Source of the DNA: a virus
IMG/VR virus record: IMGVR_UViG_3300035698_021976
Span: 1-27,476 of that record
Strand: one strand, 5' to 3'
Length of the DNA: 27,476 nt
Part shown: piece after piece, positions 2,542 to 17,257 of the stretch
Layout of the letters: each line of letters opens with the position of its first letter
Numbering within the stretch: position 1 is the stretch's first letter
The notes under the pieces: generated by a model
Told to the model about the DNA's origin: nothing
The model's input: only the letters and a program-made list of their open reading frames with translations
Databases searched by the model: none
Made by a program: the position numbers and the translations under genes

Positions 2542-2979
2542 ATGAAAACTAAAATAAAAAAAGTTCATTATTGTGAATATTGCAAAAAACATGGATTGAA
2601 AGGTCCTAACATAGAACGTCATGAACAACATTGTACAGGAAATATTGATAGAACATGTAGATTATGTGGAAGAACAGAAAGTGTAAGAGAATTAGTAAAT
2701 ATATTGAAAAGAAAATGTTCTATTGAAACTGTAAAAGTAGATGTTAGCGAAAGTTTCCAAAATGAAATACAGCAGAAGGTAAAAAATCCTAAAGTAGAAG
2801 ATATTAAAGATGTTATTGAAAATGACTGCCCTGCTTGTATATTAACAATTATAAGAGGGATTGGTTTACAACATTATCCTTATGAAATAAAGTTTGATTA
2901 TACAGAAGAATTAAAGAAATGGTGGGCTAATAAAAACGAAGAATCTTATCAATCAGAAATGCGAGAATGGACTAGCTAA
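2542..2979 (+). CDS. Zinc-finger protein (145 aa)
   Basis: ATG 2542 is taken as start; a TTG at 2518 would give 8 more residues but overlaps the previous gene. The N-terminal third has a C2H2-like finger (CEYCKKHG, then HEQHC at about residues 10-33), followed by CRLCGR. A further CPAC lies at about residues 96-99. The first finger resembles DNA-binding fingers, but the protein could equally be a structural Zn-ribbon protein. It sits between small proteins and the 5' nuclease in a replication-linked operon. Function unknown. Confidence 0.65.
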   Translation: MKTKIKKVHYCEYCKKHGLKGPNIERHEQHCTGNIDRTCRLCGRTESVRELVNILKRKCSIETVKVDVSESFQNEIQQKVKNPKVEDIKDVIENDCPACILTIIRGIGLQHYPYEIKFDYTEELKKWWANKNEESYQSEMREWTS

Positions 2980-2980
2980 A

Positions 2981-3121
2981 ATGCAAAAAATTAAGACTTT
3001 AATTTGTAAACTTTTTGGACATAAATGGAATAGAAAGAATTTTTCTAAAGATTCATATACACAGTTATGTTTTAGATGTGGTAGACAAGAATGGGGTGGA
3101 CCTGCTGATGAATGTTTCTAA
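2981..3121 (+). CDS. Small Cys-rich phage protein, DUF1660-like (46 aa)
   Basis: A short gene starting one base after the previous stop and overlapping the following gene by 14 bases. The sequence has the pattern LICKLFGHKW near the start and CFRCG at about residues 30-34, with a final Cys at 45. This matches the small prophage proteins called DUF1660, which have an N-terminal CxLFGHxW and a C-terminal CxxCG and probably bind zinc. No function has been established for the family as far as I know. Confidence 0.6.
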   Translation: MQKIKTLICKLFGHKWNRKNFSKDSYTQLCFRCGRQEWGGPADECF

Positions 3122-4112
3122 TAATAAAGGTAAAATAGTATTTGTAGATTGGGGTATAATAATGTTTCGTTCAATCTTTGCTCATGCTAGAGATAAAACA
3201 ATTCCCTCAACTCGTACAGCAGTAGCTATACTTATAAGTAACTTAAAGAAAGTTGGTTTAGATAAAGAAGATTTAGTAATTATAGCCGCTGACAGTCCAA
3301 AAGGTTCATGGAGAAAAGAAGTTGATGTAGCTTATAAAGCAAATAGAAAAGAAAAAAGACAACGAGTTGATATTAATTGGAAAGAACAATTTGCTGCTTT
3401 TTGGAATTTACTTGAAAAATTAGAAATGTATACTCCTTTTCATACAATTTCTTTATATAAATTAGAAGCAGATGATATAATAGCTTACGGGTGTAAAAAA
3501 TTTAAGGATAAAAAATGTGTGATAATAAGTAGTGATGGAGATTATGAACAATTATTTATCTATCCTAATCTTGAGATATTTAGTCCATCTTCTAAGCGTT
3601 ATAAATTATATGTAGACCCTTATAAGGTATTGGCTAAGAAAATACAAAAAGAAGCTTCAGATAATTTAATTACTCCTATTTTGAATGAAAAAGATTTTGA
3701 AAGAAGAAATAAAATTGTTAATTTAATGACCTTACCAAAAGAAATAGAAGAACAAATAGAAATTCATTTAAATCTTTTTCCTGAAAAAAACTGGATGATT
3801 GAAAATTTACCTTATCAATCATTACATAATAGATTTGAAACAATATATGAAACAGACAAACTAGCAGGTGTTAGAAGATATGGAATAAAAGAAAGATGGG
3901 AAAAAGCTAGAAATAAAATAGAAACTACATATACAGATGAAAATTTGTCAAAAAGAGGTATAAATATAATAGCGTGTTGGTATCCCGATAAAAATAATGG
4001 ATGGATTAAAACAATAGAATGGGAAAATGTAAGAAAAAAAGAACTGAAAGAACAAGTAGTAAAAAAGCGTTTAAGAGAGAAACGCAAGAAAGGAGACAAA
4101 AACAATGGATAG
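3108..4112 (+). CDS. 5'-3' exonuclease / flap nuclease, T4 RNase H-like (334 aa)
   Basis: PIN/FEN-type 5' nuclease that would remove RNA primers and flaps during phage replication. Start at ATG 3108, inside the end of the preceding small gene; the longer frame back to 3015 lacks a family-like N-terminus. Conserved acidic residues: D14 (VFVDW), D62 (AADSPKGSWRK), the basic YKANRK arch segment at 76-81, E120 and D122/D123 (LEADDI), and D143/D145 (SSDGDYEQL). The SPSSKRYKLYVDP segment recalls T4 RNase H. The helix-hairpin-helix region that normally follows is poorly conserved. The C-terminus ends in a Lys/Arg-rich tail. It overlaps the next gene by 8 bases. Confidence 0.82.
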   Translation: MNVSNNKGKIVFVDWGIIMFRSIFAHARDKTIPSTRTAVAILISNLKKVGLDKEDLVIIAADSPKGSWRKEVDVAYKANRKEKRQRVDINWKEQFAAFWNLLEKLEMYTPFHTISLYKLEADDIIAYGCKKFKDKKCVIISSDGDYEQLFIYPNLEIFSPSSKRYKLYVDPYKVLAKKIQKEASDNLITPILNEKDFERRNKIVNLMTLPKEIEEQIEIHLNLFPEKNWMIENLPYQSLHNRFETIYETDKLAGVRRYGIKERWEKARNKIETTYTDENLSKRGINIIACWYPDKNNGWIKTIEWENVRKKELKEQVVKKRLREKRKKGDKNNG

Positions 4113-4329
4113 AGAACAAATTGTTGAGATAGCTCTCCAGAGAATAAGAGAAGAAGAACAAGCAAATAATGTTATTAAAACAGTTGAAGAAGCAGAAATA
4201 GATTCATCAATAGACTTTGTTATTAAACTAATCAAGGATATCAATAAAGGCGAAAAAGCCAAAATAGTCCTTGACAAATACCAGAAAGGGGAGTATAATG
4301 GAACTGAAGTTAAAAATGAGACTAAATGA
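4105..4329 (+). CDS. Hypothetical acidic helical protein (74 aa)
   Basis: Start at ATG 4105 with AGGAG at 4091. The sequence is Glu/Lys-rich and predicted helical throughout (IALQRIREEEQANNVIK and similar), without Cys, signal or membrane segment. The 3' end overlaps the next gene by 32 bases and contains the promoter-like element at 4271. Family not recognised. Confidence 0.55.
   Translation: MDREQIVEIALQRIREEEQANNVIKTVEEAEIDSSIDFVIKLIKDINKGEKAKIVLDKYQKGEYNGTEVKNETK
4271..4299 (+). promoter_or_regulatory. Sigma70-type promoter overlapping a start codon
   Basis: TTGACA (4271-4276), a 17-base spacer, then TATAAT (4294-4299): a perfect consensus. The -10 box overlaps the ATG at 4298, so a transcript from here would begin inside that gene, around 4306. 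It would serve the Zn-ribbon gene at 4628 and the primase-helicase rather than the gene it overlaps. Confidence 0.6.
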
Positions 4330-4618
4330 TAAGCAAGAAATAGAAATGACTTTTGATGGAGCTGATTTAGGAGATGTTATTTTAAAAGCAAGTCCTTTAC
4401 TAGATTTTAATGGTGAGTGTAGTTTTTGTAAAAACAGTAATGTTCAATTAAGAACAAGAACTGCAGGTGAGGGGGGAGAATTCAAATATACAGAATTTTT
4501 ATGTAGGGAATGTGGTGCTAAAAGGCAAATGGGTAGACATAAATCAGATAATTCATATTTTTTAAAGCAATGGGAACCAAAATATGAAAAGCCTGCAGGT
4601 GCTGCTCCAACAGAATAG
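4298..4618 (+). CDS. Zinc-ribbon phage protein (106 aa)
   Basis: Start at ATG 4298 after GGGGAG; the TTG at 4271 is less likely. Four Cys in two pairs: CSFC (about residues 40-43) and CREC (about 69-72), followed by GAKRQMGRHK and a Trp-containing end (LKQWEPKYEK). This layout (beta strands, CxxC, strand, CxxCGA, then G-H-K) is one I know from small proteins often found beside single-strand annealing or replication genes in phages. The function is not established. The preceding and following genes make a replication role plausible, but that is inference. Confidence 0.65.
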   Translation: MELKLKMRLNDKQEIEMTFDGADLGDVILKASPLLDFNGECSFCKNSNVQLRTRTAGEGGEFKYTEFLCRECGAKRQMGRHKSDNSYFLKQWEPKYEKPAGAAPTE

Positions 4619-6975: not shown

Positions 6976-7054
6976 GGTATCTGTAGCTTAAACGGTTAAA
7001 GTGCTTGGTTGTGACCCAAATGCGATACCAGTTCGATTCTGGTCAGGTACCCCA
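6976..7054 (+). tRNA. tRNA-His (anticodon GUG), CCA encoded
   Basis: Cloverleaf read by hand. An 8-bp acceptor stem includes the His-specific extra G(-1) paired with C73. D stem GCTT/AAGT with GG in the loop. The anticodon stem TTGG/CCAA encloses TTGTGAC with anticodon GTG at 7011-7013. T stem ACCAG/CTGGT with loop TTCGATT. CCA is encoded at 7052-7054. Oddities: position 27-43 is a C/A mismatch and the variable loop has 6 bases (TGCGAT). It lies 6 bases behind the primase-helicase stop in the same orientation, so it is probably cut from the operon transcript. Confidence 0.92.
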
Positions 7055-8547: not shown

Positions 8548-8576
8548 TTGACAAAATAAACAAGTTATGTTATAAT
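8548..8576 (+). promoter_or_regulatory. Consensus sigma70-type promoter
   Basis: TTGACA (8548-8553), 17-base spacer, TATAAT (8571-8576): a perfect match, in a true intergenic gap. Transcription would start near 8583, leaving a leader of about 35 bases before ATG 8618 with GGGAAGGAG as ribosome site. It would drive the segment with the NAD genes. The -35 context ACTTGACAAAA recurs at 17601 and 21045. Confidence 0.85.
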
Positions 8577-8617: not shown

Positions 8618-8857
8618 ATGAATCAAAAAATTAAAGAAGTTGACATTGTAGAAAACAAAATATGGGAAATAGGAAGATATACTATAGTGCAAGTTAAAGA
8701 TTCTTCTGGGATTAGAGCAGTTGGTTTGTCCAGAAAATCACAATCAGATAAACATTATAATAAAGAATTAGCTTTAAAAATAGCTAATGGGAGAGCATTG
8801 AAATCCTTATCTTTAAAAAAAGCAAAAAAATCTGTTTATCATCCTCTTATGGGATAA
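8618..8857 (+). CDS. Hypothetical phage protein (79 aa), first gene behind the 8548 promoter
   Basis: The first cistron of the new transcript. The N-terminal half is beta-strand-like (VENKIWEIGRYTIVQV) and the C-terminal half is basic and helical (ELALKIANGRALKSLSLKKAKK). The ANGRAxKxL pattern is one I have seen in short phage proteins of unknown function. Being promoter-proximal and with a strong ribosome site, it is probably made in quantity early in infection. Confidence 0.6.
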   Translation: MNQKIKEVDIVENKIWEIGRYTIVQVKDSSGIRAVGLSRKSQSDKHYNKELALKIANGRALKSLSLKKAKKSVYHPLMG

Positions 8858-8872: not shown

Positions 8873-9082
8873 ATGTATTGGATTCTAATACCTGTAGGAA
8901 TAGCACTTGTACATTGTGTAAATTGTTTAGTAGTAAAAGGAATAATATGGACTATATATGAATTGTTTAATTATTCTTTGTATGGTAAATTTTGGCCAGT
9001 ATATGTTTTATTAGTGATAATAACTATGTTATTAAAACAAATAGGGCCTATAAAAATCTTTCCAGAAGGAGACAAAAAATGA
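8873..9082 (+). CDS. Small membrane protein (69 aa)
   Basis: ATG 8873 is chosen over ATG 8858 because AAAGGAG (8861-8867) lies just before it and inside the longer version. Two hydrophobic segments: WILIPVGIALVHCVNCLVV and FWPVYVLLVIITMLL. It is predicted to span the membrane twice. The ATGA overlap links it to the nicotinate phosphoribosyltransferase gene. Function unknown; a role in uptake of a pyridine precursor would fit the neighbours but is only a guess. Confidence 0.55.
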   Translation: MYWILIPVGIALVHCVNCLVVKGIIWTIYELFNYSLYGKFWPVYVLLVIITMLLKQIGPIKIFPEGDKK

Positions 9083-10185
9083 GAAATTTTCAGCTACCGA
9101 TAGATTACAAACCCTACATTGATAAATATTTTCTTAGAGCAAAAGAAGTATTGCAAAAAGAAGACTTAAACCCTATAGTTAAAGCTCAAGTATTCATTAG
9201 AAGAGGAGATTGTCAAGTTTATGGTATTGATGAAGCTATAGCTATACTTACTAAATACGCCAATACAAAAAATCTTGAAATTTGTGCTTTAAAAGAGGGT
9301 AGTCACTTTGAAGATAAAGAATGTTTAATGACTATTAAAGCTCCTATTCAGGATATTATAGATTTAGAAACTATGTATTTAGGAGTTTTAAGTGCAGAAA
9401 CTACTTTGCAAAATGGTGAGAATGATATTGATTTAGTTTCTATAAGAGATAATATGAAAAAAATTGTAGAACTAATTGATGGTAGACCTGTATCATATTT
9501 TGGAGCAAGACATTGGAGATATGATAGAGATTATGATATAGCAAAAGCTTGTCAAGAAGCAGGTGCTAAAAATTGTTCTACAGATATAGGTGCTAAAGCT
9601 TGGGGAGATGATGCTAAAGGTATTGGAACCATTCCTCATGCATTAGAAGCTATTTATCATTGGAAATATGGATTAAAAAGAGCAGTTGTTGAATCAACTA
9701 AAGCTTTTGATAAACATATGGCTTGTAATATTCCTAGAATAGCTTTGATAGACTATGCAAATAGAGAAATAACAGATACTTTGTTAACAGTTAATGAAAT
9801 TCCACATTTGTATGGTATAAGAATAGATACTTGTGGAGAAAATTATATACAAGGTCACATTGTAATTCCTCAAGATAGTGGAGATGATATTTATTCATTT
9901 AGTAAAGGAGTTTCATTATTTGGAACATTTATGTTACATAATATCTTAAAAGCTGAAGGAAATTATAAAGTAATGCTTTCTAGTGGTTTTGGTAACCCAG
10001 AAAAAATAGAAAGTTTTATAAATGCAGAAAGAGAACTTGGTTATCAAGTATTTGATGGTCTAGGTGTTGGTGGTATATTTGAATCTCGTATATCTACTAT
10101 GGATATAATAGAAGTAGATGGTCAAAATATACATAAAGTTGGTAGACTACCAAAAGATGTTTCTAAACTAGAAAAAGTTGTATAA
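9079..10185 (+). CDS. pncB: Nicotinate phosphoribosyltransferase (368 aa)
   Basis: Joins nicotinic acid with PRPP to give nicotinate mononucleotide, the committed step of the Preiss-Handler route. Family hallmarks: FGARHWR at 141-147, STDIGAKAW near 167-175, GTIPHAL at 183-189, GIRIDT at 246-251, the phosphate-binding SSGFGNPE at 301-308 and GLGVGG at 327-332, then DIIEVDGQ. The size and motif spacing recall the short archaeal (Thermoplasma-type) enzymes rather than the longer bacterial PncB or NAMPT. The start is the ATG of ATGA with AGAAGGAG before it; an upstream in-frame start at 8992 lies wholly in the previous gene. Protein level should follow the 8548 promoter. Nicotinamide as substrate (NAMPT/NadV activity) is less likely, because a nicotinamidase is encoded further on. 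Confidence 0.88.
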   Translation: MRNFQLPIDYKPYIDKYFLRAKEVLQKEDLNPIVKAQVFIRRGDCQVYGIDEAIAILTKYANTKNLEICALKEGSHFEDKECLMTIKAPIQDIIDLETMYLGVLSAETTLQNGENDIDLVSIRDNMKKIVELIDGRPVSYFGARHWRYDRDYDIAKACQEAGAKNCSTDIGAKAWGDDAKGIGTIPHALEAIYHWKYGLKRAVVESTKAFDKHMACNIPRIALIDYANREITDTLLTVNEIPHLYGIRIDTCGENYIQGHIVIPQDSGDDIYSFSKGVSLFGTFMLHNILKAEGNYKVMLSSGFGNPEKIESFINAERELGYQVFDGLGVGGIFESRISTMDIIEVDGQNIHKVGRLPKDVSKLEKVV

Positions 10186-10212
10186 TTTAAATAATATAAA
10201 ATGGAGAACATT

Positions 10213-10674
10213 ATGAATATGAATGCTTTAGAAGCAGATAGATTACTAGTTTTAGCTGAAAAAATTGCAACTCAAGCACATAAAGGACAATTCAGAAATG
10301 ATGGAGTTACTCCTTATATAGAACATCCAAAAGCAGTTGCTAACTCATTTTATAGAAGTTCTAAAAATAATTTGCCACGATGTAATTTTGAAGGAAAAAT
10401 AAGTGCTTGGTTACATGATGTTATAGAAGATTCTGATATTACCTTAGCCGATTTATTGAATAAAGGTATCCCTTTTGAGATAGTTAATACTGTTGAGACA
10501 TTAACAAAAAGAAAAGATGAAGATTACTTAGATTATATATTACGAATAAATCAAAACTCAGATGCAATTCCAGTAAAACTAGCAGATTTAAAACATAATA
10601 TGAAAGAATGTAAAAATAAACATCAATTAAGGAAATATCAATTAGCAACATTTATTTTGGAGAAACTTTTATAA
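10213..10674 (+). CDS. HD-domain hydrolase, SpoT/MESH1-like (153 aa)
   Basis: Stand-alone metal-dependent HD hydrolase of the RelA/SpoT N-terminal kind. Motifs: HKGQFRNDG with PYIEHP, WLHDVIEDS (the HD pair) and KLADLKHN. No synthetase or TGS domain, so this is a small alarmone hydrolase type. Members of the group remove pyrophosphate from (p)ppGpp, and the animal MESH1 can also take the 2' phosphate from NADPH. The start at ATG 10213 is preferred because GGAG (10203-10206) precedes it; ATG 10201 would contain that site. Its position between pncB and nadD makes a nucleotide-signal or pyridine-nucleotide substrate attractive, but this is inference. Confidence 0.8.
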   Translation: MNMNALEADRLLVLAEKIATQAHKGQFRNDGVTPYIEHPKAVANSFYRSSKNNLPRCNFEGKISAWLHDVIEDSDITLADLLNKGIPFEIVNTVETLTKRKDEDYLDYILRINQNSDAIPVKLADLKHNMKECKNKHQLRKYQLATFILEKLL

Positions 10675-11087
10675 TGTCACAAGTTATATTTCAAAAATTT
10701 ATTTGTAGAGAAGATGTGCAAAACAACCCTGAGGTAGTATACTTATTTGGTGATAATGATATGTGAATTGGAAAAGGGGGCCAAGCTAAAGCTATGCGAG
10801 GAGAACCAAATACTATAGGAATTAGAGTTAAAAAAGCTCCTCTTACTGATAAAGAAGTTTATTATACAGACAAAGAATTTAGTCAGAATGTTTTAAAAAT
10901 TGAAGCAGATATAAATAATGTTTGTAAAGTATTAAATGATGGTCGCATAATAATAATACCTTCTGATGGAATAGGAACTGGTTTAGCAAGATTAAAACAA
11001 TTTGCTCCAAAAACTTTAGAATTTTTACAAAAAAAATTAAGAAACATTGCAGAGGACTATAATGAGATATGGAATAGTAGGGAATAG
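10674..11087 (+). pseudogene. Uncharacterised phage domain gene interrupted by an in-frame TGA
   Basis: ATG 10674 shares a base with the preceding stop. The frame reads VVYLFGDNDM, TGA (10764-10766), then IGKGGQAKAMRGEPNTIGIR and, near the end, IIIPSDGIGTGLARLKQFAP, ending at TAG 11085-11087. I know this family from many phages as a domain with GDNxxRxGxGGQAxxMRGEPN and IPxxGIGTGLAxL. The TGA stands where the family has Arg, so a single change (CGA or AGA to TGA) is enough. The glycine-rich loops recall macro-type nucleotide-binding folds, which is a guess. The 3' part could still be translated from an internal start near 10794. Confidence 0.65.
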
Positions 11088-11427
11088 AAAAGGATGGGAT
11101 AAGAATTTTGTTTTTAATATTCTTTCTAAAAAGTTTAAAATAAACAGTGATGATATAATTCTATCAGGTGGGGGAAATGGTATTGATACTTATGCTCAAG
11201 AATATGCTAAAAAAGTTGGTTCTTTAATGATAATATATTATCCTAATCCAAAAATATCTAGCCCAAAAAGATATTTTGACAGAAATAAAGATATAGCAAA
11301 TAGTTGTGATATATTAATAGCTTTTGACAAAGGAAGTTCATCAGGTTCAGGAACATTAAATACAATTAATCATGCTAAAAGAATAAAAAAAGCAGTAACA
11401 GTTATAAAGGATATAAAATATGTTTAA
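11062..11427 (+). CDS. SLOG-fold protein, YspA/DUF2493-like (121 aa)
   Basis: Rossmann-like fold of the SMF/DprA-LOG superfamily. Motifs: YGIVGNRKGWD at the N-terminus, LSGGGNGIDTYAQEYAKK (nucleotide-binding Gly-rich loop), KRYFDRNKDIANSCDILIAF, and SGSGTLNTINHAKRI. Start at ATG 11062 with AGAGGAC before it, overlapping the previous gene by 26 bases. SLOG proteins bind or process nucleotide-derived ligands, and in anti-phage systems such as Thoeris a SLOG domain senses a cyclic ADP-ribose signal. Here it lies within the NAD gene cluster, so binding of an NAD-derived ligand is a reasonable hypothesis but unproven. Confidence 0.75.
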   Translation: MRYGIVGNRKGWDKNFVFNILSKKFKINSDDIILSGGGNGIDTYAQEYAKKVGSLMIIYYPNPKISSPKRYFDRNKDIANSCDILIAFDKGSSSGSGTLNTINHAKRIKKAVTVIKDIKYV

Positions 11428-11442
11428 CATTAAGGATAAAAA

Positions 11443-11628
11443 ATGACCGAGAAAAAAATATTATCTGAAATAAATTCTAAGTTAGACTATATAATATCTA
11501 AGATACCAAAAAGTTATATAGGTACTATAGTAGGCAATCCTATGAATCCTATGAATCCAGGACATTATTATGAACCTAAAGAAGACCCAGAAAATCCTAT
11601 AAGGCCTTCTGAAAGGAACAAACCATGA
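11443..11628 (+). CDS. Small Pro/Asn-rich protein (61 aa)
   Basis: An N-terminal helix (ILSEINSKLDYIISKI) is followed by a low-complexity tail with NPMNPMNP and a Pro/Glu-rich end. The middle is encoded by a short tandem DNA repeat (11536-11558). The stop overlaps the NadD start (ATGA). Family not recognised; disordered tail likely. Confidence 0.5.
   Translation: MTEKKILSEINSKLDYIISKIPKSYIGTIVGNPMNPMNPGHYYEPKEDPENPIRPSERNKP
11536..11558 (+). repeat. Short tandem repeat, unit AATCCTATG
   Basis: Two full 9-base units and a partial third (AATCC), in frame, encoding the NPMNPMNP stretch. In-frame unit length allows copy-number change without a frameshift. Confidence 0.7.
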
Positions 11629-12149
11629 AGATAGGAATATTAGGTGGTTCTTTTGACCCACTCCATAATGGACACTTATATTTAGCAGAGTGTGCTAAAA
11701 ATTGGTTGAAACTGAATAAAATTATTTTTGTTCCTTGTAGTATTTCACCTTATTTAGATAAAAAAATAGCTACTTCTAAACAACATAGATTAAATATGTT
11801 AGATATGTCTATTAATAATAGTTATATGAAAGTTGATGATTATGAAATAAAAAGTAAGGGTATATGTTACACTATAGACACTATTAAATATTTAAAAAAG
11901 AAATATAAAAAAGATAAATTATATTTAATTTTAGGTCCCGACTGTGAAGACACGTTTAGCACATGGAAAGATGTTGATAAAATTACAAAATTAGTTAAAC
12001 CCATGTTTGCAGGTCGGAATATTCCAATAATACATTTAGATATAAGGTCAACATTCATTAGAAATTTAGTTGAAAATAAAGAGAATATCAAATATTTAGT
12101 ACCCAAAGAAGTTGAAATGTACATAAATATATATAAACTATATAGATAA
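11625..12149 (+). CDS. nadD: Nicotinate mononucleotide adenylyltransferase (174 aa)
   Basis: Transfers AMP from ATP to nicotinate mononucleotide, giving nicotinic acid adenine dinucleotide. HIGH-type nucleotidyltransferase: GGSFDPLHNGH at 7-17, YTIDTI at 82-87, LGPD at 103-106 and the second ATP-binding motif STFIR at 142-146, with the usual C-terminal helix KEVEMYI. At 174 residues it is slightly shorter than most bacterial NadD. The start is the ATG overlapping the upstream TGA. Nicotinate specificity rather than nicotinamide (NMNAT) is inferred from the NadD-like motifs and from the neighbouring pncB and nadE. Confidence 0.88.
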   Translation: MKIGILGGSFDPLHNGHLYLAECAKNWLKLNKIIFVPCSISPYLDKKIATSKQHRLNMLDMSINNSYMKVDDYEIKSKGICYTIDTIKYLKKKYKKDKLYLILGPDCEDTFSTWKDVDKITKLVKPMFAGRNIPIIHLDIRSTFIRNLVENKENIKYLVPKEVEMYINIYKLYR

Positions 12150-12152
12150 AAA

Positions 12153-12407
12153 ATGAATAAATTAATATTAAAAATATTATTTGGTAAACGAAAAGATAGT
12201 TATGAAGGAGAATATGCTTCAGAAGCTTTGGAAATCATTGATGAATATTCTGAGGACGAAGCTCCTGATTTTCTTACAGATAAATTAAAAGATTATCAAA
12301 AAGACGATAGCTTTGCAAATTTAACAATAATTGAAATAGAAGTAGATGAAGAAAAAATAAATAATTTTTTGAAACCTATAAACAAAATTGAAGGAAAAAT
12401 AAAATGA
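12153..12407 (+). CDS. Acidic hypothetical protein (84 aa)
   Basis: Sits between nadD and nadE and overlaps the nadE start (ATGATGA). Acidic middle (YSEDEAPDFLTDKLKDYQKDD) and a final strand-helix (LTIIEIEVDEEKINNFLKPI). No Cys, signal or membrane segment. Not recognised. Its position between two enzymes of one pathway makes a link worth testing, although small unrelated genes are common in phage operons. Confidence 0.5.
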   Translation: MNKLILKILFGKRKDSYEGEYASEALEIIDEYSEDEAPDFLTDKLKDYQKDDSFANLTIIEIEVDEEKINNFLKPINKIEGKIK

Positions 12408-13195
12408 TGAAAATAGACTGCAAAAAAGAAACTGAAAAAATAGTAAATTTTATACAAGGTACTTTTGAAGAAAAAGGTTTTGAGAATGCAGTTATAGGTA
12501 TTTCTGGGGGATTAGATAGTGCTGTTGTACTTGCTTTGTTGATTAAAGCATTAGGAAAAGATAAGATATATGGATATTATATTCCTTTAGACAACCCTGA
12601 CGGATTCACTACTGATGCATTTGTTGTTAGTGACAAATTTGAAAATCGTATGGATACTTATAGTATAGGAAAATTCATTGAGATGTTTAAAGTTACTTTT
12701 CCAAAATTAAAAGATTGGAAAGTTAGAGTTGGAAATATTATAGCTAGAACTAGAATGATGATTTTATATGATATGTCAGCTAAAAATAAAGCTTTAGTAG
12801 TTGGAACAAGTAATAAAACTGAATTAACTTTAGGATATTTTACTCAATTTGGTGATGGAGCTTGTGCTTTAGAACCAATTGGACATCTATATAAAACACA
12901 AATAAAACAGTTAGCTGAATATTTAGAAGTTCCTCAACAAGTTATAGATAAAGCTCCAAGTGCAGAATTATGGGAAGGGCAAACCGATGAAGAAGAATTA
13001 GGTATGACTTATGAAGAAATAGATAAAATATTATTTGCTATGCAAAATATGAGTGATTTTTGTGATTTACAAGTTGTAAAAAAAATGAGTGACAAATATA
13101 ACTTTGTAAAACTTGATAATAATTTTTACAAAATAAAAAATATAATTAAAACAAATAAATTTAAATCAGAATTACCTTATAAGATATGGGAGTAA
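12404..13195 (+). CDS. nadE: NH3-dependent NAD synthetase (263 aa)
   Basis: ATP-dependent amidation of nicotinic acid adenine dinucleotide to NAD+. N-type ATP pyrophosphatase: PP-loop SGGLDS at 34-39, then ARTRMMILYDMSAKN, VVGTSNKTELTLGYFTQFGD and KAPSAELWEGQTDEEELG, all typical. It is the short, single-domain form without a glutaminase domain, so it should use free ammonia. Start ATG 12404 (ATG 12407 is equally possible; both lie in ATGATG). Its product ends the pathway begun by the pncB and nadD genes just upstream. Confidence 0.92.
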   Translation: MMKIDCKKETEKIVNFIQGTFEEKGFENAVIGISGGLDSAVVLALLIKALGKDKIYGYYIPLDNPDGFTTDAFVVSDKFENRMDTYSIGKFIEMFKVTFPKLKDWKVRVGNIIARTRMMILYDMSAKNKALVVGTSNKTELTLGYFTQFGDGACALEPIGHLYKTQIKQLAEYLEVPQQVIDKAPSAELWEGQTDEEELGMTYEEIDKILFAMQNMSDFCDLQVVKKMSDKYNFVKLDNNFYKIKNIIKTNKFKSELPYKIWE

Positions 13196-13198
13196 AAA

Positions 13199-13399
13199 AT
13201 GAAAGTAGGACAAGAAGTAAAAGCAATATTACCTTGTGATGGAAAAACATCTATTCAATATGAAATAGGTAAGATAATTTATATAGGAAGGAGAGTTCTG
13301 GTAGAATTTTTTAGTAATGTATGTGGACATAATGGAAATGGTATAGGCAAAAACAGACACTGTTGGATGATTGATTTCAACAAATTACAGGAGGTTTAA
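13199..13399 (+). CDS. Small SH3-like phage protein (66 aa)
   Basis: Begins KVGQEVKAILPCDGK, followed by YEIGKIIYIGRRVLVEFF and a C-terminal GHNGNGIGKNRHCWMI. This is the pattern of small phage proteins with a KOW/SH3-like barrel that end in G-H-x-G-x-G-x-x-x-H-C-W. The His/Cys residues may bind metal. No known function. It continues the nadE transcript with a 3-base gap. Confidence 0.6.
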   Translation: MKVGQEVKAILPCDGKTSIQYEIGKIIYIGRRVLVEFFSNVCGHNGNGIGKNRHCWMIDFNKLQEV

Positions 13400-13400
13400 A

Positions 13401-13673
13401 ATGGGAAATGATTTGGAAAGAGGATTATTTCAGATAATAGCAATAAACAAAGATAATGATAGTATAATTTATGAAACAAAAATAGTTGCTGAAGGTGAAA
13501 AAGAAGCTCTTTATGAAAGTAATATGAAAGAAGAACTTGCAAAAAAAAGCTTGACAAAAAATGATGTGTATGTTATAGTAAAAGAGATTGCTAGAGTACC
13601 AGAAAAAGAAGAAGTTAAGAAAGTTAAGATTATAGGTCAAGTAGGTAAAACTATTTTAGCTACAGAAAGATAA
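13401..13673 (+). CDS. Hypothetical phage protein (90 aa)
   Basis: ATG 13401 is preceded by AGGAGGT, a near-perfect ribosome site; an in-frame ATG at 13371 lies within the previous gene and is rejected. Mixed strand/helix pattern: LFQIIAINKDNDSIIYETKI, then a Lys-rich helix, then VYVIVKEIARV. Resembles short phage proteins with an alpha/beta plait, without a specific family. It contains a promoter-like element near its 3' end. Confidence 0.55.
   Translation: MGNDLERGLFQIIAINKDNDSIIYETKIVAEGEKEALYESNMKEELAKKSLTKNDVYVIVKEIARVPEKEEVKKVKIIGQVGKTILATER
13551..13579 (+). promoter_or_regulatory. Putative sigma70-type promoter inside a gene
   Basis: TTGACA (13551-13556), 17-base spacer, TATAGT (13574-13579). 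It lies in the 3' third of the gene at 13401 and would start transcripts near 13586, ahead of the gene at 13684. One mismatch in the -10 box. Confidence 0.45.
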
Positions 13674-13683
13674 GGAGAATAAA

Positions 13684-13989
13684 ATGACTATAGTTGCTGA
13701 TAAAATATGTGAAATGAGATTGTTAATTTCTACTAAGGAATTAGCTTGGTTTAAAGAAAACTTTCCTAGTTTCAAATGGGAATCGGGAGATACCACAATA
13801 AAGTGGAATGCTAATGATTCAAATGAAGTTGAAATGGCTAAAAAAGCATTTAACGCATATAAAAAGAAACATCCAAAAGCATTAGCTTTTAAAGTTGATA
13901 AAAATGATAAGAAAAATGCTAATGAATTAAAAGATTTTGACCCTAATGCAGAAATGATAATAATGCAAGATTGGATGCATAAAGGATAA
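13684..13989 (+). CDS. Hypothetical phage protein (101 aa)
   Basis: ATG 13684 with AAGGAG before it. N-terminal strands (CEMRLLISTKELAWFKENFPSF read in two parts) and a Lys-rich helix (AKKAFNAYKKKHPKALAFKV), ending in EMIIMQDWMHKG. No Cys, no membrane segment. One base separates it from the next gene, and it may be the first gene behind the promoter at 13551. Not recognised. Confidence 0.55.
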   Translation: MTIVADKICEMRLLISTKELAWFKENFPSFKWESGDTTIKWNANDSNEVEMAKKAFNAYKKKHPKALAFKVDKNDKKNANELKDFDPNAEMIIMQDWMHKG

Positions 13990-13990
13990 A

Positions 13991-14953
13991 ATGGAATTTC
14001 GTAAGTATAATAATCCTAATAACTTTACAGAAACTCTTAGTATACAATATGCTTTACCTAATGGGGAAGAAAAAGTTTTAGGTATAGATATAGATAAAAA
14101 TAGATATCTTCGTGATGGAGCTATGGATTATTATAAGCATACTGAAGAAGTTGCTAAAAGAGAATTGAAAAGAAGAGCAGATGAAGATATTCAAAAATGT
14201 ATGGATGAAAGGATAAGAGCAATGGCTACTATACCTACTAATTATCTTAATTGTGAAGAACCTACTAGAGCTGAAGCATATCAACAATATGTTCAAGGGA
14301 ATTTTGTAGAAGAAGATAGAATAGATGCTACATCATATGCTGTTGCTTCTTCTACTGCTTCAAGTAATGCAACTTTAAATTTTACTACTTTAGCAAATTC
14401 TATAGCAAGTTTAACTGAATGGGCTAATGGGTATTCAAATCAATGCCAACAATATCCAAGAACAATTAAGATTAAGTTTAAAGATGGTAATAAAACTTTA
14501 GAAATAGAAAAAAATGTTAAGGATTCTATAGAAATAACTAAAGAAGATATTGAAAAAGCTAGAGTTAAATGGTGGAAAGGTGCTAGATTTCAGATATTGG
14601 AACGCAAAGCAGAAAAGAAAGCTGAAACATTACTCCAATCTTTTATTGGTGAAATAGATTTTAGAAATTATAAAGAGAGAGGTTTCTTTACTGTTAAACA
14701 AGGAAATAAAATATTTAGAATATGGAAAGATAATCATAAACATATAGATATGTGGGAACAAGAAGGATTACTTTTTCAGCCTAAAAATAGATTATGTGTT
14801 CATACTCCTACAAGAGAAGTTCCATTGGCAGACGAAGCATTAAGTAAATTATTAATGATAAGGTCTGGAAAAATTATAAAAGGAAGTAATCATTATTCAG
14901 TGAATGGATTATTACCTACTATAAAAAATGAAAAAGAATTAGTACTAATATAA
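13991..14953 (+). CDS. Conserved phage protein of unknown function (320 aa)
   Basis: Two parts. Residues 1-200 are mostly helical with an Ala/Ser/Thr-rich segment (SYAVASSTASSNATLNFTT). Residues about 210-300 hold a module I know from many phage proteins: KAETLLQSFIGEIDFRNY, then RGFFTVKQGNKIFRIWK, and a closing LCVHTPTREVPLADEALSKL. That module (L-x-x-x-I-G-x-x-x-F-x-x-Y, then a strand hairpin) occurs in predicted phage accessory proteins. No biochemical function is known to me. Fairly long for this region, so probably important to the phage. Confidence 0.6.
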   Translation: MEFRKYNNPNNFTETLSIQYALPNGEEKVLGIDIDKNRYLRDGAMDYYKHTEEVAKRELKRRADEDIQKCMDERIRAMATIPTNYLNCEEPTRAEAYQQYVQGNFVEEDRIDATSYAVASSTASSNATLNFTTLANSIASLTEWANGYSNQCQQYPRTIKIKFKDGNKTLEIEKNVKDSIEITKEDIEKARVKWWKGARFQILERKAEKKAETLLQSFIGEIDFRNYKERGFFTVKQGNKIFRIWKDNHKHIDMWEQEGLLFQPKNRLCVHTPTREVPLADEALSKLLMIRSGKIIKGSNHYSVNGLLPTIKNEKELVLI

Positions 14954-14963
14954 AGGATTACTT

Positions 14964-15353
14964 ATGTGGCAATTTTTACAATTTTTGTTTATCTTCATAG
15001 CAGGACATAGTTTAGCTGATACAGCTTTACAACCTGTATCTATGGGTAGAGGTAAAAGTAGACATAGAAAAATAGATATGACTGCTGTTCCTCCTGGACA
15101 AAAACCTCTTAATTTATGGTTTTTATGGTTATGTCACCATGCTGTTTTACACGGGATTGTTGTATTTTTTCTAACCTTTTTACTTACTAAAAAGATATCG
15201 TTTTCAATTACTCTTGGAATGATAGAAAGTGTTTCTCATTGGATTATAGATTTTTTTAAATGTGAAGGTAAATATAATCCATATGTTGACCAAACATTAC
15301 ATTATCTTGTTAAAGCAGGGTTAGTAATTGCAATAATATGGAGTTTATTATGA
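14964..15353 (+). CDS. DUF3307-type membrane protein (129 aa)
   Basis: Four hydrophobic segments, with the family's conserved polar residues within or beside them: AGHSLADTALQ near the N-terminus, CHHAVLHG in the middle, ESVSHWIIDFFK, and YVDQTLHYLV near the C-terminus. The His/Asp set is the mark of DUF3307 proteins, which occur in phages and bacterial genomes and may form a membrane metal site. Function unknown. The stop overlaps the next start. Confidence 0.75.
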   Translation: MWQFLQFLFIFIAGHSLADTALQPVSMGRGKSRHRKIDMTAVPPGQKPLNLWFLWLCHHAVLHGIVVFFLTFLLTKKISFSITLGMIESVSHWIIDFFKCEGKYNPYVDQTLHYLVKAGLVIAIIWSLL

Positions 15354-15499
15354 AAAATTTAGTATTAGAAAGAATTGAAAAAGAACTTTGTCCTATTTGT
15401 GCTAAGAATATGAGTAGTGTAAAGATTAAAATAGTTAAGTATAATAATCAAGAAGTTTTTATATGTGAAAGTCATTATGTGGAAAAGGAGATAAGATGA
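15350..15499 (+). CDS. Small Cys-rich protein (49 aa)
   Basis: ATG 15350 overlaps the previous stop (ATGA) and its own stop overlaps the next ATG. Carries CPIC at residues 14-17 and CESH at about 40-43, a likely single Zn site (Cys3-His). Function unknown; one of several tiny metal-site proteins in this genome. Confidence 0.55.
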   Translation: MKNLVLERIEKELCPICAKNMSSVKIKIVKYNNQEVFICESHYVEKEIR

Positions 15500-15684
15500 A
15501 TGAAATAAGTTTATTCACTATAATTGTGTCTATATTTGTGGGTATGGGAATTTATAAAGTATTAGAAGCTTGGGCTGAAAAGATAAGAAAAAAAGCTTTT
15601 TCTAATGAAGTTATGAGATTATTTAAAAACAAATTTGTTTCAGAAGATTTTAAACTTACTATTACAAAAGGAAAGAAGAAATGA
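15496..15684 (+). CDS. Small single-pass membrane protein (62 aa)
   Basis: AAAGGAG precedes ATG 15496. One N-terminal hydrophobic segment (LFTIIVSIFVGMGIYKVL), followed by a basic cytoplasmic tail ending TKGKKK. Linked to both neighbours by ATGA overlaps. Not recognised. Confidence 0.5.
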   Translation: MNEISLFTIIVSIFVGMGIYKVLEAWAEKIRKKAFSNEVMRLFKNKFVSEDFKLTITKGKKK

Positions 15685-15830
15685 AAAAAATTAGGAAAAT
15701 AAAGTTTTATAATAACAAAACAACTACACATTGCTTAAATTTTCCATTTATTTGGTTTGAAAAAATCTATTCTGATATGTGTTTGATAAAAATAGGAAAT
15801 TATGTAATAGAAATAAATACTGGAGAATAA
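15681..15830 (+). CDS. Hypothetical protein (49 aa)
   Basis: A short frame linked by an ATGA overlap to the gene before and separated by one base from the nicotinamidase start. Basic N-terminus (KKIRKIKFYNNK), then an aromatic stretch and a strand-like end (CLIKIGNYVIEIN). Not recognised; translation is supported mainly by the tight spacing. Confidence 0.45.
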   Translation: MKKIRKIKFYNNKTTTHCLNFPFIWFEKIYSDMCLIKIGNYVIEINTGE

Positions 15831-15831
15831 A

Positions 15832-16473
15832 ATGAAAATATTATTTTGGAATGTAGATACTCAAAAAGATTTCATGAATAAAGATGGAGCCTTGTATGTT
15901 GAAGGAGCAGAAAGTATAAAACCAAACTTAAAAAAACTCACAGAATTAGCAGACAAACATTCTATAACAGTAGTTAATACTGGAGATTGTCATACGGAAA
16001 AATCTGAAGAATTATCAGAAACTCCAGATTTTAAAACTACTTTTCCAAAACATTGTATGGTCAAAACTGAAGGATGTGAATTCATAGATGAAACTAAACC
16101 ACAACTTAAAGACACTAATTTTTACATAACTAGTTCTTATATAGGAGAATTAAATCCAGATTTTCTAAAAGCTAAAAATATTATAATACACAAAGACAAG
16201 TTTGATGTATTTGAAGGAAATCCACATACAGACAAAATATTAAAAGAATTAAATCCAGAAGTTGTTGTAGTATATGGAGTTGCAGCTAATGTATGTGTGA
16301 ACTTTGCTATTCTTGGATTACTAGCAAGAGGTAAAAAAGTATATGTGGTCATAGATGCTATTAAAGGATTACCTAATTTACCATTAGCTCATTTAATAGA
16401 AGATTGGATAAAAGCAAAAGCTTTAGTAATCAAAACTGAGAATGTTGAAGAAATAATAACTAAAAATAAATAG
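15832..16473 (+). CDS. pncA: Nicotinamidase / isochorismatase-family hydrolase (213 aa)
   Basis: Would hydrolyse nicotinamide to nicotinic acid and ammonia, feeding PncB; the ammonia could feed NadE. Catalytic triad D9 (NVDTQKDF), K121 (IHKDKFDVF) and C155 (YGVAANVCV). Metal-site residues D52, H54 (TGDCH) and H74 (TFPKHC) match nicotinamidases rather than metal-free isochorismatases. Length is normal for PncA. Start at ATG 15832 follows TGGAG. It is separated from nadE by about 2.6 kb of small genes in the same orientation. Another amidase activity of the superfamily cannot be excluded, but the metal site and the presence of pncB, nadD and nadE make nicotinamidase the best call. Confidence 0.85.
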   Translation: MKILFWNVDTQKDFMNKDGALYVEGAESIKPNLKKLTELADKHSITVVNTGDCHTEKSEELSETPDFKTTFPKHCMVKTEGCEFIDETKPQLKDTNFYITSSYIGELNPDFLKAKNIIIHKDKFDVFEGNPHTDKILKELNPEVVVVYGVAANVCVNFAILGLLARGKKVYVVIDAIKGLPNLPLAHLIEDWIKAKALVIKTENVEEIITKNK

Positions 16474-16821: not shown

Positions 16822-17257
16822 TCAAAAAGAATATATGAAATTATATTATCAAGAACATAAACTAAAAATAAAACAACAATCTAATAACTGGTATAACAGT
16901 AATAAAACACAAGCTTTAAATAATAATAAAGTTTGGAGAGAAAATCATCCTGAAAAAAAGAGAGAAATTGATGAAAAAGCTCGGAAAAAATTTAAAACAG
17001 TAAATCCTTGGGCAACTAATTATCATCATGCAAGAGAAAGATGTACTAACCCAAATCATATTAGTTATAAATCTTATGGAGGCAAAGGAATTAAATTTTT
17101 AATGACTATGGAAGATTTTAAATTTCTTTGGTTTAGAGATAAAGCTTATTTAATGAAATTTCCAAGTATTGATAGGATTAAAAATAGAGACAATTATATT
17201 TTATCAAATTGCAGATTTCTTGAATTAAAACAAAATATTCGTAGAAAAAGAAAATAA
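16814..17257 (+). CDS. HNH-type homing endonuclease (147 aa)
   Basis: The N-terminal half is a Lys/Asn/Gln-rich basic helix region. The C-terminal half has the module seen in many free-standing phage HNH/AP2-like endonucleases: HHARERCTNP, then YKSYGGKGIKF, then FPSIDRIKNRDNYILSNCRF and an Asn in ELKQN. The paired His, the D of SIDRI and the Asn are candidate catalytic residues. It lies between two copies of a 28-bp repeat, so it appears to be a mobile insertion. ATG 16814 overlaps the tiny upstream frame and has GAGGAAGA before it. Confidence 0.75.
   Translation: MFNQKEYMKLYYQEHKLKIKQQSNNWYNSNKTQALNNNKVWRENHPEKKREIDEKARKKFKTVNPWATNYHHARERCTNPNHISYKSYGGKGIKFLMTMEDFKFLWFRDKAYLMKFPSIDRIKNRDNYILSNCRFLELKQNIRRKRK

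Follow-up and report, generated by a model that had tools for sequence, protein, structure and literature searches.

A phage locus predicted to encode a complete deamidating NAD+ salvage pathway with an archaeal-type nicotinate phosphoribosyltransferase

Does one phage locus supply every step of the deamidating (Preiss-Handler) salvage of NAD+, and what purpose would such a set serve? In this pathway PncA converts nicotinamide to nicotinate and NH3, nicotinate phosphoribosyltransferase (NAPRT) converts nicotinate to NaMN, NadD converts NaMN to NaAD, and NadE converts NaAD to NAD+ at the expense of NH3 and ATP. The question is raised by the window, the whole stretch of DNA analyzed here, which is the entire 27,476-base IMG/VR virus record IMGVR_UViG_3300035698_021976. 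A sequence-only reading had assigned the four functions to four ORFs; an ORF check bore out that all four are intact, lie on the + strand and have the coordinates it had given. The features of the locus are as follows, where G001 is an 86-kb relative that is syntenic with the window (identities: NAPRT 70%, NadE 67%, NadD 52%).

8548 to 8576, + strand: perfect sigma-70 promoter-like site (TTGACA-17-TATAAT, TG extended -10)
9079 to 10185, + strand: predicted NAPRT (pncB function), archaeal type, 368 aa; from family models and fold
10201 to 10674, + strand: HD-domain hydrolase, SpoT/RelA-like N-terminal type; a neighbor, kept only in G001
10674 to 11087, + strand: DUF7831 gene with one in-frame TGA; a neighbor
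11062 to 11427, + strand: SLOG/DprA-like small protein; a neighbor (G001 ortholog 73%)
11625 to 12149, + strand: predicted NadD, nicotinate-nucleotide adenylyltransferase, 174 aa; TIGR00482 above cut-off, with 1kam and other NadD structures
12404 to 13195, + strand: predicted NadE, NH3-dependent NAD+ synthetase, 263 aa, without a glutaminase domain; NF010587 and TIGR00552 above cut-off, with 2e18 and 1xng
13551 to 13579, + strand: near-perfect (11/12) extended sigma-70 promoter-like site, upstream of the pncA-bearing stretch
15832 to 16473, + strand: predicted PncA-type nicotinamidase, 213 aa; from PF00857, residues and solved relatives

The NAPRT, NadD, NadE, and PncA genes share one orientation within 7.4 kb. 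They are interleaved with others rather than contiguous (the HD-domain, DUF7831, and SLOG genes and small ORFs lie between them), and the PncA gene lies 2.6 kb past NadE. Because four consecutive pathway steps fall in so short a stretch, and because the order NAPRT, NadD, NadE is the same in G001, chance clustering is not an issue. Between its NadD and NadE genes G001 carries a different isochorismatase-family protein, which replaces the window PncA and has a Pfam score under the cut-off. Scans of IMG/VR for close relatives with NadE yielded G001 at most. As this homologous relative runs on past both ends of the window, the comparison shows the window to be, by all appearances, a fragment of a longer genome.

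Several of the interspersed genes merit description in their own right. In the DUF7831 gene one in-frame TGA (FGDNDM*IGKGG) stands at a position where the intact G001 gene encodes Arg; this may be a nonsense change, a sequencing error, or recoding. HD, SLOG, and DUF7831 genes do not accompany other NAD sets outside the window and G001, and because they are found only in these two they give no general link to ADP-ribose signaling. The NadD-NadE gap of G001 (L001 14024 to 18029) also encodes a PP2C phosphatase, a protein with a kinase-like match under the cut-off, and a protein of 245 aa that is vWA-like by eye; this arrangement resembles a TerY-P triad and is absent from the window. A second cytidylyltransferase-like gene, CoaD-like by eye (L001 11886 to 12317), lies between the G001 HD and DUF7831 genes and is likewise missing from the window.

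The viral nature of the record rests on the surrounding genes. The window DNA polymerase belongs to family B, with T4-type enzymes as its best phage matches, and RecA, Prim-Pol, a 5'-3' exonuclease, and small one-strand ORFs are also present; several large ORFs of G001 match phage families, and the same kind of NAD set occurs in isolated phages (phage G and Phosso). A misclassified piece of a cellular genome would fit the lack of any recognized structural virion gene among the window proteins scanned, but against the genes just listed we consider that origin highly improbable. An Rfam scan of the window returned tRNA only. Two perfect sigma-70 sites were found in the window against 0.05 expected. 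The one at 8548 to 8576 precedes small ORFs that lead into NAPRT, and G001 has a perfect site (16921 to 16949) upstream of its ortholog of the window ORF at 8618. The NAPRT start, ATG 9079, stands behind an AGGAG ribosome site and overlaps the preceding stop. Such promoter-like sites and the AGGAG ribosome site suggest that the host is a bacterium. Elsewhere in the two records, the window has a tRNA-His gene (6977 to 7054) and G001 a tRNA-His guanylyltransferase (phrog_4717; 59553 to 60341); G001 also encodes a 512-aa protein (2876 to 4414) that matches phrog_850 "RNA-binding protein" and is possibly Ro/TROVE-like. At 10 to 2064 the window has a C5 cytosine methyltransferase with an intein and a weak LAGLIDADG match; the G001 homolog (375 aa, 87% over 294 aa) is considerably shorter, apparently with no intein.

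Both NadE and NadD clear curated equivalog cut-offs, and most of each protein can be matched to solved enzymes. NadE scores 279.9 bits against NF010587 (cut-off 255) and 231.6 against TIGR00552 (cut-off 63.65); with NF010587 above its cut-off and no glutaminase domain, it is predicted to be an ammonia-dependent NAD+ synthetase. NadD scores 142.6 against TIGR00482 (cut-off 112.45) and is predicted to be the NaMN adenylyltransferase.

The NAPRT is divergent. Only nicotinate-phosphoribosyltransferase models match it (PRK07188, 3e-38; PRK08662, 2.5e-37), with scores under their trusted cut-offs; PF02749 (QRPTase_N) exceeds its cut-off. No nadC or NAMPT model matched the protein at E ≤ 0.01, and PF04095 (NAMPT/NadV) had no match in the window. 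Among solved structures, 2i14 from Pyrococcus is the closest. When the protein was modeled (moderate confidence, pLDDT 67) and its fold searched, archaeal 2i14 and 1ytd ranked first and quinolinate phosphoribosyltransferases followed, with low global TM-scores. His187, in the motif GTIPHAL, is invariant among four NAPRT relatives, and we take it to correspond to the autophosphorylated histidine of NAPRTs. The protein is thus best read as a putative nicotinate enzyme and not NadC or NAMPT; we infer its substrate, rather than assign it, because the model scores lie below trusted cut-offs. A search of a phage collection returned no relative, and a single scan of cellular genome contigs returned one cellular NAPRT, in a Diapherotrites archaeon.

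PncA exceeds the PF00857 cut-off (77.9 versus 27), and the solved structures nearest to it, 1ilw/1im5 and 3pl1, are nicotinamidases. It has the D9/K121/C155 triad and the D52/H54/H74 metal ligands, roles that we assume from PncA structures. D9, C155, D52, H54, and H74 are kept in 24/24 phage PncA-type proteins compared, and K121 is additionally kept in window-type PncA. From family match and residues together, the protein is a predicted nicotinamidase. For all four proteins the solved-structure matches agree with the family models and catalytic residues. Could one of the four enzymes nevertheless act on another substrate, with the pathway then starting from host nicotinate? The likeliest candidate is the isochorismatase-family protein, acting on another amide: the superfamily is broad, the PRK11609 score of the window PncA is far under cut-off (40.9 of 174), and G001 has an unrelated isochorismatase type in its place. 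The nicotinamidase metal ligands are, however, kept in all the compared proteins, and window-type PncA (47 to 53% identical in four further viral records) lies near a NAPRT gene in each of the five viruses found to carry it, so that we regard a different substrate as unlikely. In G002 an archaeal-type NAPRT is 1.3 kb away; the NAPRT near it in G003, G004, and G005 is of the PncB type, from another family. G004 (42 kb) and G005 (508 kb) hold all four functions within 5 kb, and G002 and G003 show NAPRT and PncA only.

Taken together, it is very probable that the window belongs to a bacterial phage with genes for every step of deamidating NAD+ salvage, and the predicted chemistry from nicotinamide to NAD+ is likely. 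PncA would hydrolyze nicotinamide, which yields nicotinate and ammonia; the archaeal-type NAPRT would combine nicotinate with PRPP, with ATP, to give NaMN; NadD would adenylate NaMN to NaAD; and NadE would amidate NaAD to NAD+ using free ammonia, stoichiometrically equal to that released by PncA. For each of the four proteins there is good support for the deamidating route that the sequence-only reading proposed (nicotinamide, nicotinate, NaMN, NaAD, NAD+), which recurs elsewhere, and that reading's suggestion that PncA supplies the ammonia agrees with established pathway stoichiometry, by which NH3 balances. We counted in favor of the pathway the four family and structure matches, the catalytic residues, the clustering, the 21 distinct loci, with unrelated phages among the carriers and differing combinations of enzyme families, and the promoter-like site shared with G001. 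Counted against it were the NAPRT scores below trusted cut-offs, the moderate-confidence model, the interleaved unrelated genes, the G001 isochorismatase-family protein below the Pfam cut-off, and the presence in G002 and G003 of NAPRT and PncA only. From these data we infer the enzyme activities, expression during infection, and the benefit of the set.

The recurrence of the set was surveyed in 37 viral records, searched for NAD synthase, isochorismatase, cytidylyltransferase-like, and NAPRTase families; loci were also searched independently with seed profiles. The survey gave 25 complete loci, none spanning more than 9 kb; at a threshold of 95% NAPRT identity 21 of them, counting the window, are distinct. 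As the records were picked for their similarity to NAPRT or PncA, these numbers show that the set recurs but not how common it is. In some loci the adenylyltransferase assignment is weak (28 to 60 bits with seed profiles), yet over the Pfam cut-off. Atu_ph07 has all four families, dispersed. NAPRT or NadE matches on short unannotated Listeria, Enterococcus, and "Bacteriophage sp." records were left out of the count because these records may be bacterial DNA. Apart from the window, at least 20 distinct viral loci therefore carry the same four functions, and the set is neither unique nor rare; where the earlier reading was unsure whether it was known, annotated phage records (phage G, Phosso) already contain complete sets.

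Bacillus phage G (NC_023719.1) encodes an isochorismatase, NAPRT, NadD, and NadE (gp275, gp277, gp281, and gp283) in 5.7 kb on one strand; unlike that of the window, its NAPRT belongs to the bacterial TIGR01513 family, and its PncA and NadE are 21% and 31% identical to the window proteins. The literature found does not describe this set as a pathway. Sinorhizobium phage Phosso (PV764938.1) has NadE, NAPRT, an adenylyltransferase, and a hydrolase, also in 5.7 kb, but with a NAPRT of the PncB family and another adenylyltransferase type. The 735-kb uncultured metagenomic phage LR756501.1 has NAPRT, NadE, and PncA together, unannotated, with NadR instead of NadD and an adjoining PnuC-like membrane protein (by eye). 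Three NAPRT families are represented: the archaeal type, TIGR01513 (phage G), and TIGR01514/PRK05321 (Phosso, LR756501). The adenylyltransferases include NadD, NadR, and other kinds, and there are several PncA types; outside G001 and G002, NAPRT is 14 to 19% identical to that of the window, whereas PncA can reach 47 to 52%. Because the NAPRT, PncA, and adenylyltransferase types are combined differently among loci, the pathway appears to have been assembled or rebuilt repeatedly rather than inherited as one operon, and its recurrence from mixed enzyme families is good evidence that selection has favored the complete nicotinamide-to-NAD+ route.

Two surveys of viral NAD+ systems describe NadV, NadM, and NadR only, that is, the amidated route (PMC9503650, PMC7824862). 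NARP2 and KVP40-type systems (NadV with NadM or NadR) resemble the window in being phage-encoded nicotinamide-to-NAD+ salvage (PMC9503650), but comprise two enzymes and pass through amidated intermediates; PF04095 matched nothing in the window. NARP1 (Adps and Namat) likewise restores NAD+ from NADase products (PMC12774641), but it takes ADP-ribose and nicotinamide and is not the Preiss-Handler route. A 2026 paper on Xanthomonas phage X1, which refers to the NARP studies, lists pncB, nadM, nadD, and nadE as auxiliary genes and links them to NAD+-depleting defenses (PMC13384950). The list overlaps the window set in pncB, nadD, and nadE; it comes from automatic annotation, also includes NAMPT, names no nicotinamidase, and is accompanied by no pathway argument (PMC13384950). 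The huge-phage paper leaves NAD unmentioned (PMC7162821). No four-enzyme deamidating pathway is presented as a phage system in the literature found, which does not include the Nature 2024 NARP paper, and the lack of an earlier report is not proven. Within phage NAD+ salvage, the four-enzyme set is a variant seen in many phages, and the window is a divergent example of it with an archaeal-type NAPRT.

What the set is for is likely to be the upkeep of NAD+ during infection, including from nicotinamide freed by NADase defenses; whether counter-defense or metabolic supply is its purpose cannot be told from sequence. On the metabolic side, large phages would raise NAD+ for their own consumers and for long infections, or would infect hosts that make little NAD+, with defense secondary. 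We give this somewhat less than an even chance: an NAD+-dependent ligase occurs in 8 of the 18 carrier records tested, and the phage G cluster includes a KptA gene, but no ligase match was found in the window, G001, or LR756501 (the first two possibly fragments), and nicotinamide is most useful as a starting point while NAD+ is undergoing cleavage. The idea that the ligase is why the set exists is only partly consistent with these results. An anti-defense role is plausible. In its specific form, the set would rebuild NAD+ from nicotinamide freed by TIR, SIR2, SEFIR, and Thoeris-type NADases, in parallel to NARP1 and NARP2 but by deamidation. In favor of this, NADases release the compound with which the route begins, the route has all its steps and turns up repeatedly as an assembled set, and NARP1 has established phage NAD+ rebuilding as counter-defense (PMC12774641, PMC13232231). 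No link to a particular NADase defense was found in the window or its relatives, no defense or anti-defense gene ties the set to NADases, and plain supply fits the same genes; we place specific counter-defense somewhat short of even.

More tentatively still, the deamidating pathway could be a third phage strategy of NAD+ reconstitution, repeatedly and independently assembled in large phages and countering NADase immunity by consuming nicotinamide, with the window clade as its archaeal-type NAPRT version. Because the set uses nicotinamide rather than ADP-ribose, it would be expected to protect against every NADase, irrespective of the fate that the enzyme gives the ADP-ribose part. Current descriptions of phage NAD+ salvage recognize the NadV and NARP1 types, and surveys or counter-defense predictors that seek only these types miss carriers of the deamidating set, including phage G and Phosso, two isolates in which its role is directly testable.
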